IMG/VR virus record: IMGVR_UViG_3300044612_001208
Span: 1-38,534 of that record
DNA from: a virus
Reading direction: 5' to 3' (one strand)
DNA length: 38,534 nt
Program-made: the position numbers and the translations under genes
Shown here: in pieces, positions 6,799 to 15,883 of the stretch
How the letters are laid out: the number at the start of each line of letters is the position of its first letter
How positions within the stretch are numbered: position 1 is the first letter of the stretch
Notes under the pieces: model-generated
Told to the model about the DNA's origin: nothing
The model's input: only the letters and a program-made list of their open reading frames with translations
Database searches by the model: none

Positions 6799-7752
6799 TT
6801 GGGCGGCGGTGCGCAGATGTTCGGGTGACAGGTGCGCGTAGCGCCGCTCCGTCACCCTGGTATCGGAATGCCCGGCCATGCGGCTGATCTCGAACATGGG
6901 GACGCCGCTCATCGCCATCCACGAAATGGCCGTGTGGCGTAGGACGTGCGGGGTTACACCCTCAACGCCAGCCCGGCGGCAGGCTGCGGCAAACCCCTTC
7001 TTGATTGAGAAGACCCGATGGCCTCCCCACTCGATGACGTGTTCGCACGTCCGGGCGGCATAGAGGACGCGGAGATAGCGATAGGCCCGGCGGTTCATGG
7101 GGACGCGGGCGCGCGCCTTCATCTGCGCATCGACAGCCTCGCCGCGCGGCAGGTGGATCACCCGGCGCTCGAAATCCACCCGCGCCCATGTCAGCTCCAG
7201 AAGGGCGCTCTGGCGGGCAGCGGTGGCCACTGACAGGGCGATGAAGGCCCGGACGTGGGAAAACCGCCGCGTGGCCTTGATGAGCCCGCGCACCTCGTCT
7301 TTCGTGAGGTAGCGATCCTTCGGGGGTGGCGGGGCCGGAAGCTCGAAGATTGCCACGGCGCCGCGCTTGTGGAAGTTCAGCGCCGCCCGGACCACTTCCA
7401 GTTCCTTGCGCACGGTGTTCGGCTTGCGCCCTGCCTCATAGCGCATGGCCGCGTATTGGCGGCAGAGGTCGCGGCTGATCTGGTCAGGCCGCAGATGCTC
7501 GAAGGTGTCCTTGGCCTGCTTCCAGGCGCCGCGCAGGTCTTCGGCCCGGATGGCGGTCTTGTCCTTGTCGGTCAGGTACGCATCGACCAGCTCGCCCACG
7601 GTGTCGCCCGCTGGCTTGGCGGTCCAGTCCTTTAACCGGCGCTTGGCCTCTTGAAGATCGGCTGTGCGGAGCGAGGTGCGTTCCGTGCGGCCATCCTTTG
7701 TTCGGACGGCGGCATAGTTTCCCCGGTAGAGTTTAACCCGCCATTCTGACAT
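6784..7752 (-). CDS. int: tyrosine integrase
   Basis: 322 residues from ATG 7752; a longer open frame to 7863 is only overlap with the excisionase gene. An N-terminal arm/core-binding region (1-140) is followed by a catalytic domain with all expected residues: Arg180 (AARQSALLEL), Lys212, His269-x-x-Arg272 (HVLRH), His295 (GHSD) and nucleophile Tyr305 (RRYAH). It should catalyse site-specific integration and excision; the tRNA-Val 200 bases downstream is the likely attachment target. The start lies 121 bases inside the preceding gene, so translation is probably coupled. Confidence 0.95.
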   Translation of the reverse strand: MSEWRVKLYRGNYAAVRTKDGRTERTSLRTADLQEAKRRLKDWTAKPAGDTVGELVDAYLTDKDKTAIRAEDLRGAWKQAKDTFEHLRPDQISRDLCRQYAAMRYEAGRKPNTVRKELEVVRAALNFHKRGAVAIFELPAPPPPKDRYLTKDEVRGLIKATRRFSHVRAFIALSVATAARQSALLELTWARVDFERRVIHLPRGEAVDAQMKARARVPMNRRAYRYLRVLYAARTCEHVIEWGGHRVFSIKKGFAAACRRAGVEGVTPHVLRHTAISWMAMSGVPMFEISRMAGHSDTRVTERRYAHLSPEHLRTAAQALDW

Positions 7753-9687: not shown

Positions 9688-10202
9688 TACTTCACGCGCA
9701 CCGCCAGCGAGGTTCCGCCGTTGGAAAGCGTCAGGCCCGGCACTTCCTCGCCGGCCAGCATGGCGTCCTTAATCGCGGCCTTGTCGGCTTCGCAGGTCCA
9801 GCGCCTGAACTTCTCGGGGAGCGTTTCAGGGTCCAGGTCCGCCGGGTAGATGACGGACGGCGAGCCCTGCCGCATGGAAAGCGTCGCCTCGGGGCGTTCG
9901 ATCTTCGTCAGGCCGGTTTCGTCCATGAACCGGGCGAGGGCGCCGCGCGCGGATTTAACCGCCTCCTCGTAGCGTTTCTTGCGGGCGCCGTAGTTGCTAA
10001 CCAGATCGCCAAGGATGGCGGCGTGCGACTGCTTTTCAGCCATCCACCGGAGAAGGCGGGAGACGGCTTCCATCGCGTCGGATTCCCCCTCAATCACGTC
10101 CGCGATCAGGTCCTCATCATCGGCGAACCCGCGCTCCCGAAGGGCGTCAGCGAGGCCCTTGGCGGTGATGGTGTGGCGGTCCAGGTACGGGGCGGCGGTC
10201 AT
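9687..10202 (-). CDS. siphovirus Gp157 family protein
   Basis: 171 residues from ATG 10202. The longer open frame upstream lies inside the annealase gene and is rejected. A helical N-terminal half with an acidic DLIADVIEGESD motif is followed by a coiled region (KKRYEEAVKSARGALARFMDETGLTKIERPEATLSMRQ) and the WTCEADKAAIKDAMLAGEEVPGL end. This is the Gp157 pattern, a phage family usually found beside single-strand annealing proteins. Biochemical role uncertain. Confidence 0.85.
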   Translation of the reverse strand: MTAAPYLDRHTITAKGLADALRERGFADDEDLIADVIEGESDAMEAVSRLLRWMAEKQSHAAILGDLVSNYGARKKRYEEAVKSARGALARFMDETGLTKIERPEATLSMRQGSPSVIYPADLDPETLPEKFRRWTCEADKAAIKDAMLAGEEVPGLTLSNGGTSLAVRVK

Positions 10203-10816
10203 GCGGCGTCCTTCCACCTGCGGGCTTCCGACTGCATAATGGTGACGACGCGGGCGTAATCGACGTCCGACATAACCGCCTTCCAGTTGGCGCGGTTGGC
10301 CTCCCATGTCGCCTTGAAGTCGTCGGCGCTGGTCGCGGCCTTTAGGCCCTTGATGGCGAAGTCGGCGGCGCTGGGGGCGGCTTCCACGTTCGCCTGCGTC
10401 TTGTCGTACAGGGCGAGGCCGAACGGGTTGCCGAAGGTCATGAGGGCGCGCTTCATCGCGTCCGTCTCGGCTTCCTTGAGGGCGCTTTCGTGGGCTTGGT
10501 CCACGTCCTTGTCGATGCCGGAACCGAACCCGCAGCCCTCGCGGATGATGGTGCGATCTCCGGCCCGAACGGTGATGCGGACACGGCAGGAGTAGCCGAC
10601 GCGGGCCTTGTCGCCGACCATGCGCGGCTCGCCGAGTTGGCGAAGTTCCACCGTCTCGCGGTCCCACTCCCCGAACCCGAAGATGCGGTTAGCCTCGGCG
10701 ATGGCGTGCCAGCCTTCAATGTAGGACAACTCGCGCCCGGCTTGCGTGCGCGTGGCAACAACGGCCTTGTTAAGCGGGGCTGACAGGTCGGCGGTCTGTT
10801 CGGGCGTGAAGGTCAT
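10199..10816 (-). CDS. Rad52-family single-strand annealing protein
   Basis: 205 residues. The Rad52/22 core occupies about residues 12-135: SYIEGWHAIAEANRIFGFGEW, then beta strands with VGYSCRVRITV, REGCGFGSG, and the ESALKEAETDAMKRALMTFGNPFGLALY helix-turn. The C-terminal 70 residues are a variable tail. The fold anneals complementary single strands during phage recombination. It is encoded with gp157 and ninB, and its ATG overlaps the stop of the 51-residue ORF upstream. Confidence 0.9.
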   Translation of the reverse strand: MTFTPEQTADLSAPLNKAVVATRTQAGRELSYIEGWHAIAEANRIFGFGEWDRETVELRQLGEPRMVGDKARVGYSCRVRITVRAGDRTIIREGCGFGSGIDKDVDQAHESALKEAETDAMKRALMTFGNPFGLALYDKTQANVEAAPSAADFAIKGLKAATSADDFKATWEANRANWKAVMSDVDYARVVTIMQSEARRWKDAA

Positions 10817-11661: not shown

Positions 11662-11744
11662 GACGTGATGATCCAGATGAGCGCCGCCCAAACGATCAGG
11701 ACGACGGTGAGGTAATTGGCGGCGGAGCGGCTGGGGCGGGTCAT
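11658..11744 (-). CDS. 28-residue single-TM peptide
   Basis: ATG 11744 overlaps the preceding TGA and its own TGA overlaps the next ATG (ATGA on both sides). After a basic start (MTRPSRSAAN) the rest is one hydrophobic helix (about residues 11-27, rich in Val, Ile, Leu, Trp). Size and topology fit a membrane micropeptide. Its early expression suggests an effect on the host envelope, which is inference. Confidence 0.55.
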   Translation of the reverse strand: MTRPSRSAANYLTVVLIVWAALIWIITS

Positions 11745-12022
11745 CGACCGCTCGCCATTTCCCAGCGGTGTTCCGCTGCCTGTTCGGCGTGGTCGGTGTC
11801 GGCGTCGGCGAGGGCATCCTCGGCTTCCGACAGGAAGTGCTGAAGGATTAGCGCCGACAGCTCCGGCGAAACCGGAACCATGCGCGTCGTCTTGTGACGC
11901 AGGCCAATCGGGGCGGCGCGGTCATAGACGATCAGGCCGATCTCGGTGATCTCGGCTTCCGCGTGACGGTCGAGGGCTTCGACGATCACTTCAACTTCAA
12001 AGCTGATGGTCGCGGTCTGCAT
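11741..12022 (-). CDS. first gene of the left early operon, hypothetical
   Basis: 93 residues. ATG 12022 is preceded by GGGAGACACC, a good ribosome site, and lies about 20 bases after the predicted PL start. The sequence begins MQTATISFEVEVIVEALDRH (beta then helix), has IGLIVYDRA and RMVPVSPELSALILQHFL, and ends in an acidic helix. No family recognised. The longer open frame to 12100 would run through the promoter and is rejected. Confidence 0.75.
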   Translation of the reverse strand: MQTATISFEVEVIVEALDRHAEAEITEIGLIVYDRAAPIGLRHKTTRMVPVSPELSALILQHFLSEAEDALADADTDHAEQAAEHRWEMASGR

Positions 12023-12046: not shown

Positions 12047-12075
12047 ACTATGCGCAACGCATAACAGCATGTCAA
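12047..12075 (-). promoter_or_regulatory. PL, early leftward promoter
   Basis: On the minus strand, -35 TTGACA (12070-12075) and -10 CATAGT (12047-12052) are 17 bases apart. Operator OL1 lies between them. The predicted start is about 12040, giving a leader of some 18 bases with the GGGAG ribosome site of the first gene. Confidence 0.8.
12049..12063. promoter_or_regulatory. operator OL1 (perfect palindrome)
   Basis: TATGCG-CAA-CGCATA on the plus strand: 6-base arms, 3-base centre. It sits between the -35 and -10 of PL, so a bound repressor would block polymerase. The same half-sites occur at PR and at the repressor promoter. Confidence 0.8.
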
Positions 12076-12088
12076 CGCAAAACGCATA
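12074..12088. promoter_or_regulatory. possible operator OL2 (one good half-site)
   Basis: The right arm CGCATA (12083-12088) is perfect; the left arm matches only 3 of 6. It is 25 bases from OL1, just upstream of PL -35. Another single TATGCG half-site is at 12114-12119. Confidence 0.4.
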
Positions 12089-12155
12089 GCAGCGCGCCAC
12101 TTGTTTTCACGGCTATGCGACAGCGGAAGTTATTGGGGGGAGGGCGGCATAGCCG

Positions 12156-12959
12156 CTAGGCGTCGTCGTCCGTGACCGGCGAAAACAGAATCGGCGGGCG
12201 CTCGCGTCGGGCGTAGTCCGCGACGACAACGCCAATGATTTTTGGGGCCGTCTGGTCATAGTCGCCAGCGGCAGAGAGGATGAACGGCTCCTGATAATCC
12301 GGGTGCGAACTGCGCGGCATTAGCGCGTTCTTTCCGTCAATCGTCATCAGCTCTTTAAGCGTGATCTCGATTAGCCCGTTTTGCTGGCGTTCGCAAACGA
12401 CGTGATCGCCGACACGAAGCCCGGCCTCCGCAGGCGAGGCGACGATGACATATCGCCCAGGGGGATAGAGGAGGTCCATCGACGGGCCGGCGACGCGAAG
12501 CGCCCAAAGCGCCGCTCTTTCATAGCCCGGCACGTCAACCGAAAGGCTTTCACTAGCGTCAATCGTCGCACTCACGCCAATCTCCCGCCAAACTCCGGCG
12601 GCAACTTCACCCATTATGGGTACGCTACGCAAGGTGGATTGTGGACGTTTTTCGCGGCTGACCGGTCCATTTTTGACCCAAAGCCGCATTTCCGCAGCCG
12701 GAATCGGCCTTCCGTCGTCTGGCGATTTTGTCGGAGGAGGGGTCATTTTCGCCCCCGTTCCGGTGCCGAATAGCAGCCACTGCGGCGTCACCTTGAACAT
12801 CTTGGCGTAGCGTTCAGCTGACTTTGTAAATCCGCGGCTGCCGTTCTCGTGGGCCATGTAGGTCTGCTGGGGAATGCCCATAGCGTCCGCCGCCGCTGGC
12901 GCTGTTTCAAATCGCGCGGCTATGCGGGCGGCTTTAAGGCGGGCGGCGGAACTGGACAT
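12156..12959 (-). CDS. phage repressor, XRE HTH + S24 self-cleaving peptidase (CI-like)
   Basis: 267 residues from ATG 12959. The N-terminal XRE helix-turn-helix is at about 17-65 (AADAMGIPQQTYMAHENGSRGFTKSAERYAKMF). A linker and a LexA/S24 C-terminal domain follow: cleavage site Ala121-Gly122 (GEVAAGVW), nucleophile Ser160 (VAGPSMD) and general-base Lys202 (ITLKEL). Autocleavage on RecA activation would induce the prophage. It is divergent from the Cro-like gene, with operators between them. The open frame to 13193 upstream crosses the operators and is rejected. The leader is short, with no clear Shine-Dalgarno. Confidence 0.9.
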   Translation of the reverse strand: MSSSAARLKAARIAARFETAPAAADAMGIPQQTYMAHENGSRGFTKSAERYAKMFKVTPQWLLFGTGTGAKMTPPPTKSPDDGRPIPAAEMRLWVKNGPVSREKRPQSTLRSVPIMGEVAAGVWREIGVSATIDASESLSVDVPGYERAALWALRVAGPSMDLLYPPGRYVIVASPAEAGLRVGDHVVCERQQNGLIEITLKELMTIDGKNALMPRSSHPDYQEPFILSAAGDYDQTAPKIIGVVVADYARRERPPILFSPVTDDDA

Positions 12960-12980
12960 TTCGCACAGATATAGAAACTC

Positions 12981-12986
12981 ATTATG
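12981..12986 (-). promoter_or_regulatory. candidate PRM -10 for the repressor
   Basis: Minus-strand CATAAT, five of six bases of the consensus, 22 bases upstream of the repressor ATG. The -35 position 17 bases further (TAGCGT) is poor, as for an activator-dependent maintenance promoter. Operator OR1 (13008-13022) would place the repressor at that -35. Confidence 0.5.
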
Positions 12987-12997
12987 CGTTTCGCCTT
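12983..12997. promoter_or_regulatory. operator OR2
   Basis: TATGCG-TTT-CGCCTT: the left arm is perfect and the right arm matches 4 of 6 bases of CGCATA. It overlaps the candidate PRM -10 and touches the PR -35, so occupancy could shut off the repressor promoter, as the third right operator does in lambda. Confidence 0.6.
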
Positions 12998-13024
12998 GCA
13001 TTAACGCTATGCGCGATGCATAGT
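12996..13024 (+). promoter_or_regulatory. PR, early rightward promoter
   Basis: -35 TTGCAT (12996-13001), 17-base spacer, -10 CATAGT (13019-13024). The design copies PL: the same -10, the same spacing and the same operator position. The predicted start is about 13031, so the Cro-like mRNA would be leaderless or nearly so (ATG 13033). Confidence 0.75.
13008..13022. promoter_or_regulatory. operator OR1
   Basis: TATGCG-CGA-TGCATA, 11 of 12 arm bases matching OL1. It lies between PR -35 and -10, exactly where OL1 lies in PL. Confidence 0.75.
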
Positions 13025-13032
13025 GCTCACCC

Positions 13033-13254
13033 ATGACAACACATGCTGACATCATTAAGCGAGCGGGCACCGCAGCGGCGATCCTCGACAAGATCGGGAA
13101 TGTCGTCTCGGTCCATACTGTCACCTCCTGGCGCCAGCGGAACAGCATTCCAGCGGAACACTGGAAGGCGTTTTGCGATACCGGCCTCGCCACACTGGAC
13201 GAACTCGCAAACGCTGCCGCTGAGCGTCCTGCGCGAGCAAGGGACGCCGCCTAG
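13033..13254 (+). CDS. Cro-like HTH regulator (YdaS/Cro type)
   Basis: 73 residues. A small helix-turn-helix: IIKRAGTAAAILDKIG, then VVSVHTVTSWRQRNSIPAEHWKAF, typical of Cro/YdaS proteins that open the early right operon opposite the repressor. A disordered Ala/Arg tail follows. It should bind the shared operators and promote lytic growth. Little or no 5' leader is predicted before its ATG. Confidence 0.8.
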   Translation: MTTHADIIKRAGTAAAILDKIGNVVSVHTVTSWRQRNSIPAEHWKAFCDTGLATLDELANAAAERPARARDAA

Positions 13255-13584: not shown

Positions 13585-14981
13585 GCCTTGCCGATTATCG
13601 CGGCTTGATCGCCGCCAAGCGCATTGCCTTTGTTCCGCGCGGGATGGCGACGATCCCCAGCCTGAACCCGGCGCTAAAGGATCACCAACGCCACGCGGTC
13701 GAGTTTGCGCTTAAGGCCGGTTGCGCTGCGCTGTTTCTCGATACGGGCCTTGGCAAAACGCTCTGCGCTTTGGAATGGGGCCGCATCGTCGTTGAACACA
13801 CAGGGCGCCCGGTCCTGATGCTCGCCCCGCTGGCCGTCGCCGCTCAACACGAGCGCGAAGCGGTCAAGTTTGGCATCGACGCCAAGGCGGTTCGCGAGCC
13901 CGACGAGATCACCACGCCGCGCGTCTACATCACCAATTACGACCGGCTGGCCAAGTTTGACGCCGAACAGTTTGCGGGCGTCATCCTGGACGAAAGCAGC
14001 ATTCTAAAGAGCTTCCACGGCGCCACGACCAAGGCCCTGATTGCCACCTTCAAGCACACGCCGTTCCGCCTTTGCTGCACCGCGACCCCGGCGCCGAACG
14101 ATCATGCCGAACTAGGCCAGCACTCCGAGTTTCTGGGCGTCATGTCGCAAAGCCAGATGCTCACGCGCTGGTTTATCCATGACAGCGCCGACACTGGCAA
14201 CTGGCGCATGAAGGGCCACGCCGTTCAGGACTTCTGGAATTGGGTGGCGAGCTGGGCGCGCTGCGTTTCCAAGCCCTCTGACCTTGGATTTAGCGACGAA
14301 GGCTATGACCTGCCCGCGCTCGATCTGAAGCGCCACATTGTCGAGGCGGATCGCTCGCTTGACGCGGGCGCCGAGAAGGACGGCCAGGCACGGCTGTTCC
14401 GTATGCCCGATACGTCCGCAACCTCGATCCACCGCGAGAAGCGGATGACCACTGACGCCCGCGCCGACGTTATTGCGGCCCTGGTGGCGCAAGAGCCGGG
14501 CGAGGCTTGGGTGGTCTGGTGCGACACCGACTATGAAGCCGACGCGCTGGCCGACCGCATCCCCGGCGCCGTTGAGGTTCGCGGCTCGATGAGCCCCGAC
14601 GTCAAAGAGGCTAACCTGACCATGTTCTCGACGGGACAGGTTCGGGTGATCATCACCAAGCCGTCAATCGCCGGGTTCGGCCTTAACTGGCAGCACTCCG
14701 CGCGCATGGCGTTCGTGGGCCTCTCGTTTTCGTATGAGAGCTTTTATCAGGCCATCCGCCGCTGCTGGCGTTTCGGCCAGTCGCGCCCGGTTAGCGTTCA
14801 CGTCGCCTGCGCTGATACCGAAGAAAGCATCTGGCAAATCGTCAGCCGCAAGGCGGGCGACCATGACGCCATGAAGGCTGAGATGACCGCTGCGATGGCC
14901 CGCGCGTCGCACAGCGTCCCCGAACAAGCACCCTATCAACCGGCCAAGCCTTTGGCCCTTCCGCAATGGATTGCCGCATGA
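13581..14981 (+). CDS. SNF2-type DEAD/DEAH helicase
   Basis: 466 residues. Walker A is DTGLGKT (about 54-60). Motif II is LDESS (about 136-140), with DESS in place of DEAH. Motif III is CTATPAPND, and motif VI QAIRRCWRFGQ is near 388-398. The C-terminal helicase lobe holds VWCDTDYEADAL and ITKPSIAGFGLNWQ. Such short SNF2 ATPases are common in phage early regions. Here the gene overlaps a DNA methyltransferase gene (ATGA), so the two may act together, as in translocating modification systems. Confidence 0.9.
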   Translation: MSLADYRGLIAAKRIAFVPRGMATIPSLNPALKDHQRHAVEFALKAGCAALFLDTGLGKTLCALEWGRIVVEHTGRPVLMLAPLAVAAQHEREAVKFGIDAKAVREPDEITTPRVYITNYDRLAKFDAEQFAGVILDESSILKSFHGATTKALIATFKHTPFRLCCTATPAPNDHAELGQHSEFLGVMSQSQMLTRWFIHDSADTGNWRMKGHAVQDFWNWVASWARCVSKPSDLGFSDEGYDLPALDLKRHIVEADRSLDAGAEKDGQARLFRMPDTSATSIHREKRMTTDARADVIAALVAQEPGEAWVVWCDTDYEADALADRIPGAVEVRGSMSPDVKEANLTMFSTGQVRVIITKPSIAGFGLNWQHSARMAFVGLSFSYESFYQAIRRCWRFGQSRPVSVHVACADTEESIWQIVSRKAGDHDAMKAEMTAAMARASHSVPEQAPYQPAKPLALPQWIAA

Positions 14982-15883
14982 CCGCTGTTCTTGACAGCAA
15001 CCAAGGCGAACGCTTCGCCGCCTATAACGCCGATTGCGTGGAGTTTGCCACTAACCTGCCTGACAACTCGCTCGACTTTTCCGTCTACTCGCCGCCGTTC
15101 GCTCACCTGTTCGTCTACAGCGACAGCGAGCGGGACATGGGTAACGTCAAGGACGAGGCTGAGTTCAAGACGCTGTACCGGCATCTGGTCCGCGAGAAGT
15201 TTCGCGCGACCAAGCCGGGCAGGCTGACAGCGGTTCACTGTTCGGACATTCCGCGAACGAAGTCGATGCATGGCGCCGTCGGGCTCTATGACTTTCCGGC
15301 GGATATTCGGGAGGTTCACGAGGCTGAAGGCTGGACCTACCACAGCCGCGTTACGATCTGGAAAGATCCCGTTGTTGAGATGACGCGGACCAAGGCGCTG
15401 GGGCTGCTGTACAAGCAGCTCTGCACCGACGCCACGCGCTCCCGCCAAGGGATGCCCGACTATCTGCTGGTGTTCCGCAAAACGCCTGCCGATGAAAGCG
15501 AGGCCGATAAGGTCGGCCAGGATCGGACGCTGTTCCCGGTCACGCAATGGCAGCAATGGGCCTCGCCGGTCTGGATGGATATCCAGCAAACGAACGTCCT
15601 TAACGTCAAGGTCGCCCGCGAGGACAAGGACGAGCGCCACCTTTGCCCGCTGCAACTCGACCTGATCGAACGCGCGGTGCGGCTCTGGACCAACCCCAAT
15701 GACGTCGTGTTTAGCCCGTTCATGGGCATCGGCTCGGAAGGCTGGGCCTCGCTCAAGGCCGGGCGCCGGTTCATCGGGACCGAACTGAAGCCCGCCTATT
15801 TCCGACAAGCCGTCCGCAACCTGACGGAAATGGAAGCGCAATCGACCGGCCCTTCGCTGCTTTCCGTGGCGGGTGTTGCATGA
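14978..15883 (+). CDS. DNA methyltransferase (N4-cytosine/N6-adenine class)
   Basis: 301 residues from ATG 14978; an ATG at 14966 also exists. Catalytic motif IV is SPPF (residues 38-41) near the N-terminus. The SAM-binding FxGxG-like motif, SPFMGIGSEGWASL, is near the C-terminus, so the order is that of beta-class enzymes. FIGTELKPAYFRQA follows. SPPF fits N4-cytosine or N6-adenine transfer. No partner restriction gene is visible except a small HNH downstream, so it is most likely an orphan that masks phage DNA. Recognition site unknown. Confidence 0.85.
   Translation: MTAVLDSNQGERFAAYNADCVEFATNLPDNSLDFSVYSPPFAHLFVYSDSERDMGNVKDEAEFKTLYRHLVREKFRATKPGRLTAVHCSDIPRTKSMHGAVGLYDFPADIREVHEAEGWTYHSRVTIWKDPVVEMTRTKALGLLYKQLCTDATRSRQGMPDYLLVFRKTPADESEADKVGQDRTLFPVTQWQQWASPVWMDIQQTNVLNVKVAREDKDERHLCPLQLDLIERAVRLWTNPNDVVFSPFMGIGSEGWASLKAGRRFIGTELKPAYFRQAVRNLTEMEAQSTGPSLLSVAGVA

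Follow-up and report, generated by a model that had tools for sequence, protein, structure and literature searches.

A predicted paired operator within mirror-image early promoters flanking an S24 repressor gene, recurring in phages of Alphaproteobacteria

The DNA analysed here, referred to as the window, is the whole 38,534-nt stretch of the IMG/VR virus record IMGVR_UViG_3300044612_001208 (positions 1 to 38,534). It holds a gene for a lambda CI/LexA-type repressor between two predicted promoters that point outward from it, PL and PR, the latter facing a divergent Cro-like gene. The features discussed below are the following:

6820..7311, minus strand: tyrosine integrase domain, PL side
10199..10816, minus strand: Rad52-family annealing protein, among the PL-side genes
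11741..12022, minus strand: first gene of the PL operon, 93 aa, no family match, with a Shine-Dalgarno-like GGGAG
12047..12075, minus strand: predicted promoter PL, with TTGACA at 12070-12075, a 17-bp spacer and CATAGT at 12047-12052; equivalents occur family-wide
12049..12063, minus strand: OL1, TATGCGTTGCGCATA, perfect 15-bp predicted operator in the PL spacer, overlapping the -10
12074..12088, minus strand: OL2, TATGCGTTTTGCGTT, weaker predicted operator over the PL -35, 25 bp upstream of OL1
12156..12959, minus strand: repressor, 267 aa, with an XRE helix-turn-helix (TYMAHENGSRG, Arg42) and an S24 autoprotease domain (PF00717, PHROG 4, alignment A4, AlphaFold model)
12981..12986, minus strand: CATAAT, possible -10 of the repressor's own promoter PRM, inside OR2, with no convincing -35 and weak family-wide support
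12983..12997, plus strand: OR2, TATGCGTTTCGCCTT, weaker predicted operator over the PR -35 and the possible PRM -10, 25 bp from OR1
12996..13024, plus strand: predicted promoter PR, with TTGCAT at 12996-13001, a 17-bp spacer and CATAGT at 13019-13024
13008..13022, plus strand: OR1, TATGCGCGATGCATA, predicted operator in the PR spacer, overlapping the -10
13033..13254, plus strand: Cro-like early gene, 73 aa, with a homologue in one of the related loci (L073)

Besides the integrase and the Rad52-family protein, the leftward genes encode NinB, while the PR side encodes a helicase, a methylase and a DnaB-like helicase. Lambda has the same order, PL serving recombination and integration and PR serving replication, and the phage in the window is probably temperate. 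The methylase gene amid the rightward early genes (14966-15883, plus strand) is of the N6/N4 DNA methylase type (PF01555).

The repressor is recognised from both of its halves. Its S24 domain scores 34.4 bits against PF00717 (cut-off 23.3), and in alignment A4 the catalytic dyad Ser160 and Lys202 is invariant and the Ala121-Gly122 cleavage site is in place. The N-terminal XRE-type helix-turn-helix matches the 434 repressor and ImmR in profile searches. An AlphaFold model, with a mean pLDDT of 76.7 and built on only six sequences, finds its best match in the lambda CI C-terminal domain (Z 13.3), and its residues 1-66 match ImmR, P22 c2 and 434 (7t8i, Z 12.0; P22 c2, Z 10.9).

An earlier note on this DNA had proposed that PL and PR each combine a -35, a 17-bp spacer and an identical CATAGT with a palindrome, TATGCG-N3-(C/T)GCATA, at the same offset between the boxes, and the coordinates bear this out. 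Exact matches to this pattern on both strands of the 38.5-kb window are two, OL1 and OR1. Near matches with up to three mismatches number 30, against 38 expected from shuffled sequence; what stands out is therefore the two perfect sites and where they are placed, not how many matches there are. The weaker copies OL2 and OR2 start exactly 25 bp from their respective strong sites; OL2, the equivalent of OR2 at PL, did not figure in the earlier description. PL and PR can thus be read as copies of one 42-bp cassette, ordered O2, -35, O1 and -10, in which 29 of the 42 positions are identical; the best place for the PL cassette elsewhere in the window reaches 25/42. The identity of the two -10 hexamers is partly explained by the GCATA arm of the operator, which supplies the CATA of CATAGT. 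This hexamer departs from consensus at both promoters, as does the TTGCAT at PR. In the near-identical relatives L001-L003, the PL cassette changes only in the 6 nt between the -35 and the operator.

When viral contigs were scanned for the operator pair or for the promoter-operator pattern, the sites recurred next to S24-type repressors in many unrelated phages. The phage collection has few direct homologues of the window repressor, and these are distant; a search of genome contigs with this repressor alone returned no relatives, which were then found with a tighter alignment. Profile A1, used for the protein search, derives from repressors that had come to notice through neighbouring operators, and the limits of the family are therefore partly operator-defined; the later loci were not chosen by operator. 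These were collected by the repressor protein motif only, and comprised 80 viral-contig and 50 genome loci, 113 after removal of redundancy, with the genome loci almost all alphaproteobacterial by record title.

All 3,840 palindromes with a 4-base arm and a gap of 0-14 were scored in the 160 bp before the repressor gene of the 113 loci. ATGC-N5-GCAT ranks first, being present in 70 of them where control windows from the same loci predict 1.5, and it is also top-ranked in the viral and the genome subset taken separately. Of the 113 upstream regions, 64 contain core pairs spaced 24-26 bp apart, compared with 1 of 1079 control windows. A weight matrix finds at least one site in 99/113 loci and at least two in 81/113, at centre-to-centre distances mostly of 24-26 bp and next of 22 bp; since this matrix was trained on those same loci, the weight rests on the de novo palindrome test. 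The relatives with the operator, phages and prophages alike, belong to Rhizobiales, Rhodobacterales, Sphingomonadales, Hyphomonadales and others. The window repressor carries the TYxxHENGxRG segment with Arg42 and has ATGC-N5-GCAT sites upstream, the features by which the operator family is defined. The new operator consensus put forward in the earlier note is thus supported by the relatives, in a broader form, (T/A)ATGC-N5-GCAT(A/T), and with a different unit, two operators spaced about 25 bp apart and sometimes three. A third operator is present in 28 of the 56 relatives with a clear O1 and O2.

The exact ATGC core is missing in 38 of the 113 Arg42 loci. One subclade (L207, L209, L214, L219, L222, L225, L271 and L272, mostly with YGTYSGHE..SRGI) is without it upstream of the gene. 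The HENG-type repressors of Synechococcus phage Ssp-JY40 and Microcystis phage Mwe-JY08 have no core, even allowing one mismatch, just upstream of the gene. Nor is the core present immediately before the repressor in three loci with a loose HENG motif (L243, L245 and L246), which were excluded from the family claim. Operator pairs of the same type are found in L007, L017, L063, L065, L076, L103 and L109, where no family repressor is recognisable among the translated frames; the site in L007, L017, L103 and L109 is located at a Cro-like gene with a helix similar to that of the repressor (LGIPYxTIAxxCNGxRGIGR). Family helix-turn-helix domains also occur in very short frames of 103-112 aa, apparently devoid of an S24 domain (L012, 5069-5407; L048, 1750-2061). 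A record titled Frankia sp. RB7 (L193), an actinobacterium, contains the switch in a typical alphaproteobacterial form, and its assembly is possibly contaminated or misnamed.

The promoter boxes recur together with the operator. A TTG -35 with a spacer of 15-19 bp is present in 69 of the 99 loci with an O1 (17 bp in 45 loci, 16 bp in 19), the commonest -35 being TTGACA (26/69) and the commonest -10 CATAGT. Downstream of the repressor gene, a second O2/TTG/O1 pair was found in 36 loci and in none of an equal amount of upstream control DNA, making the mirror arrangement of PL and PR a family trait. The proposal that outward PL and PR promoters hold the operator of the S24 repressor in their spacers is therefore borne out beside relatives found by protein, which show the same palindrome and promoter register and a second outward pair after the gene. 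A second operator-like cluster away from the upstream region of the repressor was also seen in L028 (3566-3631), L016 (3726-3791), L054 (6923-6972) and L095 (279-344), perhaps representing the PL side or additional promoters controlled by the repressor.

The start codon of the divergent small gene is also held in register. Among 68 loci, its ATG lies exactly 6 nt past the -10 in 44, and within the range of 6-9 nt in 58, against a background of 1.4% per position; in the window, the ATG of the Cro-like gene follows the PR -10 by 8 nt. If the -10 is correctly placed, transcription would start at or beside the start codon, and the cro-like mRNA would probably be leaderless. The first PL gene, unlike the cro-like gene, has the ribosome-site-like GGGAG. 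Leaderlessness here would be no new principle, as the cI and cro mRNAs of phage PY54 have been found to be leaderless (PMC4488713).

A residue in the recognition helix covaries with the operator. Repressors with Ser42 (HENGSSGF and close variants; 22 non-redundant) have ATG(A/G)-N5-(T/C)CAT sites at 22/22 loci and the ATGC core at none, while the ATGC core accompanies 75 of the 113 Arg42 repressors, one of the 75 also having a chance ATGA match. Among approximately 630 residue-operator pairs, residue 42 and operator position -3 share the highest mutual information. The Ser42 repressors form one clade, so that this covariation counts as a single event and not a repeated one. Residue 42 aligns with Asn55 of lambda CI (mature numbering) in a profile alignment of low probability that is gapless through the recognition helix. 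The lambda co-crystal shows Asn55 in contact with the base pair at operator position 6, likewise 3 bp away from the centre.

Related helix-turn-helix repressors with other helices were noted in two further phages. In Ruegeria phage 45A6 (L242, approximately 2380-2470; TYRAAENGAR), TTGACA lies between or beside TTGTGCGATACAA-like palindromes, and in Rhizobium phage RHph_I3_18 (L283, approximately 2400-2460; TYRAHENGQN) between or beside ACACGATGCATGT-like ones. In both, the O2/TTGACA/O1 layout is seemingly kept while the palindromes differ, a pattern suggesting that the frame of promoter and operator predates its specificity.

The window holds a lambda-type CI/Cro switch, and the layout itself is ordinary. 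As in lambda, an S24 repressor gene and a cro-like gene are divergent, PL and PR point outward, one operator lies in the PR spacer and a second one over the -35, and the operator centres are similarly spaced (23 and 24 bp in lambda OR, 25 bp here at both promoters). The differences concern the sequence and length of the site (17 bp in lambda, 15 bp for the ATGC-N5-GCAT site), the number of operators (three per side in the lambda type, two clear sites per promoter in the window) and the probable lack of a leader in the cro-like mRNA. The 434 and P22 repressors share the helix-turn-helix fold, by profile search for 434 and by structure for both 434 and P22 c2, but the window repressor has a TYxxHENGxR recognition helix and another operator. 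The telomere phages N15, PY54 and phiKO2 also hold lambda-like operators between the repressor (cB/cI) and cro; these phages, however, are enterobacterial, and PY54 Cro binds a single 16-bp OR3.

Closer in host, the alphaproteobacterial Rhizobium phage 16-3 has a C repressor that controls PL and PR (PMC3694467; PMC12429752); it is described as having its own operators, oL1-2 and oR1-2. For the phiLM21-like prophages of Sinorhizobium, a 2025 study reported lambda- or 16-3-like operators to be absent (PMC12429752). The isolated Caulobacter phage DMCA (PQ480021) offers a likeness in detail: it has a HENGTR repressor, a PR cassette of TTGCCA and CATTAT with the ATG 8 nt further on, and a PL cassette with the same O2/-35/O1 order as the window. 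It differs in the outer arms (AATGC...GCATT), and its repressor is 25% identical over the aligned part. We found no functional study.

Taken together, the sequence evidence makes it very probable that this locus serves as the immunity region of a temperate phage organised like lambda, whose S24 repressor would act on (T/A)ATGC-N5-GCAT(A/T) at O1 and O2 of both PL and PR. At each promoter, a repressor dimer would bind the strong O1, in the spacer and over the -10, and another the weaker O2, 25 bp upstream and over the -35. In lambda, dimers at the neighbouring OR1 and OR2 cooperate. We infer that the filling of O1 and O2 is probably cooperative here as well, as they are paired at about two and a half helical turns, like lambda OR1-OR2. 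The bound repressor would cover the -10, the spacer and the -35, shutting both PL (recombination and integration) and PR (the Cro-like protein, the helicase and DnaB-like replication), and self-cleavage upon DNA damage would release both promoters.

Other readings of the same sites have to be weighed against this one. Matches with two or three mismatches are common in the window, as they would be if sites and boxes were chance resemblances in AT-rich intergenic DNA, yet the family-wide enrichment far above control and the fixed spacing and promoter register already refute such a reading, to which we assign virtually no weight. It is very unlikely, too, that the palindromes serve mainly the Cro-like protein while the S24 repressor binds elsewhere. 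In favour of this, PR drives the Cro-like gene, and in lambda the CI operators are shared by Cro; however, the operator is kept beside repressors with the same helix, whereas the divergent small proteins vary widely (MTTHADIIK, MDAQLIRK, MTTPDDIV, MIRIADIF and others), and the covariation of an operator base with repressor residue 42 also counts against it. The Cro-like protein may still share the sites of the repressor.

The promoter calls themselves could be wrong, if the early genes were driven by an alternative sigma factor or by a host regulator, for instance CtrA, and the palindromes only silenced nearby DNA. Alphaproteobacterial promoters can deviate from the E. coli consensus, and the imperfect TTGCAT and CATAGT would fit such a driver; one report describes CtrA control of Alphaproteobacteria phages (PMC9437464). 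Against this, TTGACA is the -35 most often found in relatives at this offset from O1, 64 of the 69 loci with a TTG -35 have a spacer of 16 or 17 bp, and the early ATG stands at a fixed distance from the -10; we regard such a driver as unlikely.

The weakest part of the preferred reading, repression of PL and PR by the S24 repressor, concerns the repressor's own promoter. The earlier note had predicted autoregulation from a further copy of the palindrome over a CATAAT -10 facing the repressor gene; the copy is indeed present (OR2), two mismatches off the consensus. In 29 of 56 relatives, the sixth base of a CATNNT -10 at O2 is T, approximately twice the chance rate, and a family-wide search for a conserved -35 of a repressor promoter at O2 found none. 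Autoregulation through a -10 inside OR2 is accordingly a less certain proposal. In lambda, OR3 covers the PRM -10. If CATAAT is the -10 here, OR2 would act as a repression site for the repressor gene and activation could come only from OR1, in contrast to lambda.

On the scale of the family, we consider it somewhat more probable than its converse that these loci form a large, undescribed immunity family of Alphaproteobacteria phages with one operator code, in which Arg42, at the position of lambda Asn55, would set the -3 base, so that the immunity group could be read, and switched, at a single residue, and in which operator, -10 and start codon are compressed and the cro-like mRNA is leaderless. 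The family-wide operator code and the residue-base covariation appear to be new. A literature search found no description of the operator, of its spread among Alphaproteobacteria phages or of the residue-42 switch, a weak negative, given that subscription journals were thinly covered; the text of a paper on phiCbK and the XRE factors of Caulobacter offers no motif for comparison.

We know of no operators for most non-enterobacterial phages. Here, an operator predicted from one phage held in relatives across several alphaproteobacterial orders. Such a code would let immunity groups, prophage promoters and cross-immunity be predicted from sequence, the Arg42/Ser42 difference offers a natural residue-to-base specificity switch, and DMCA, an isolated phage with both cassettes, provides a practical test case.
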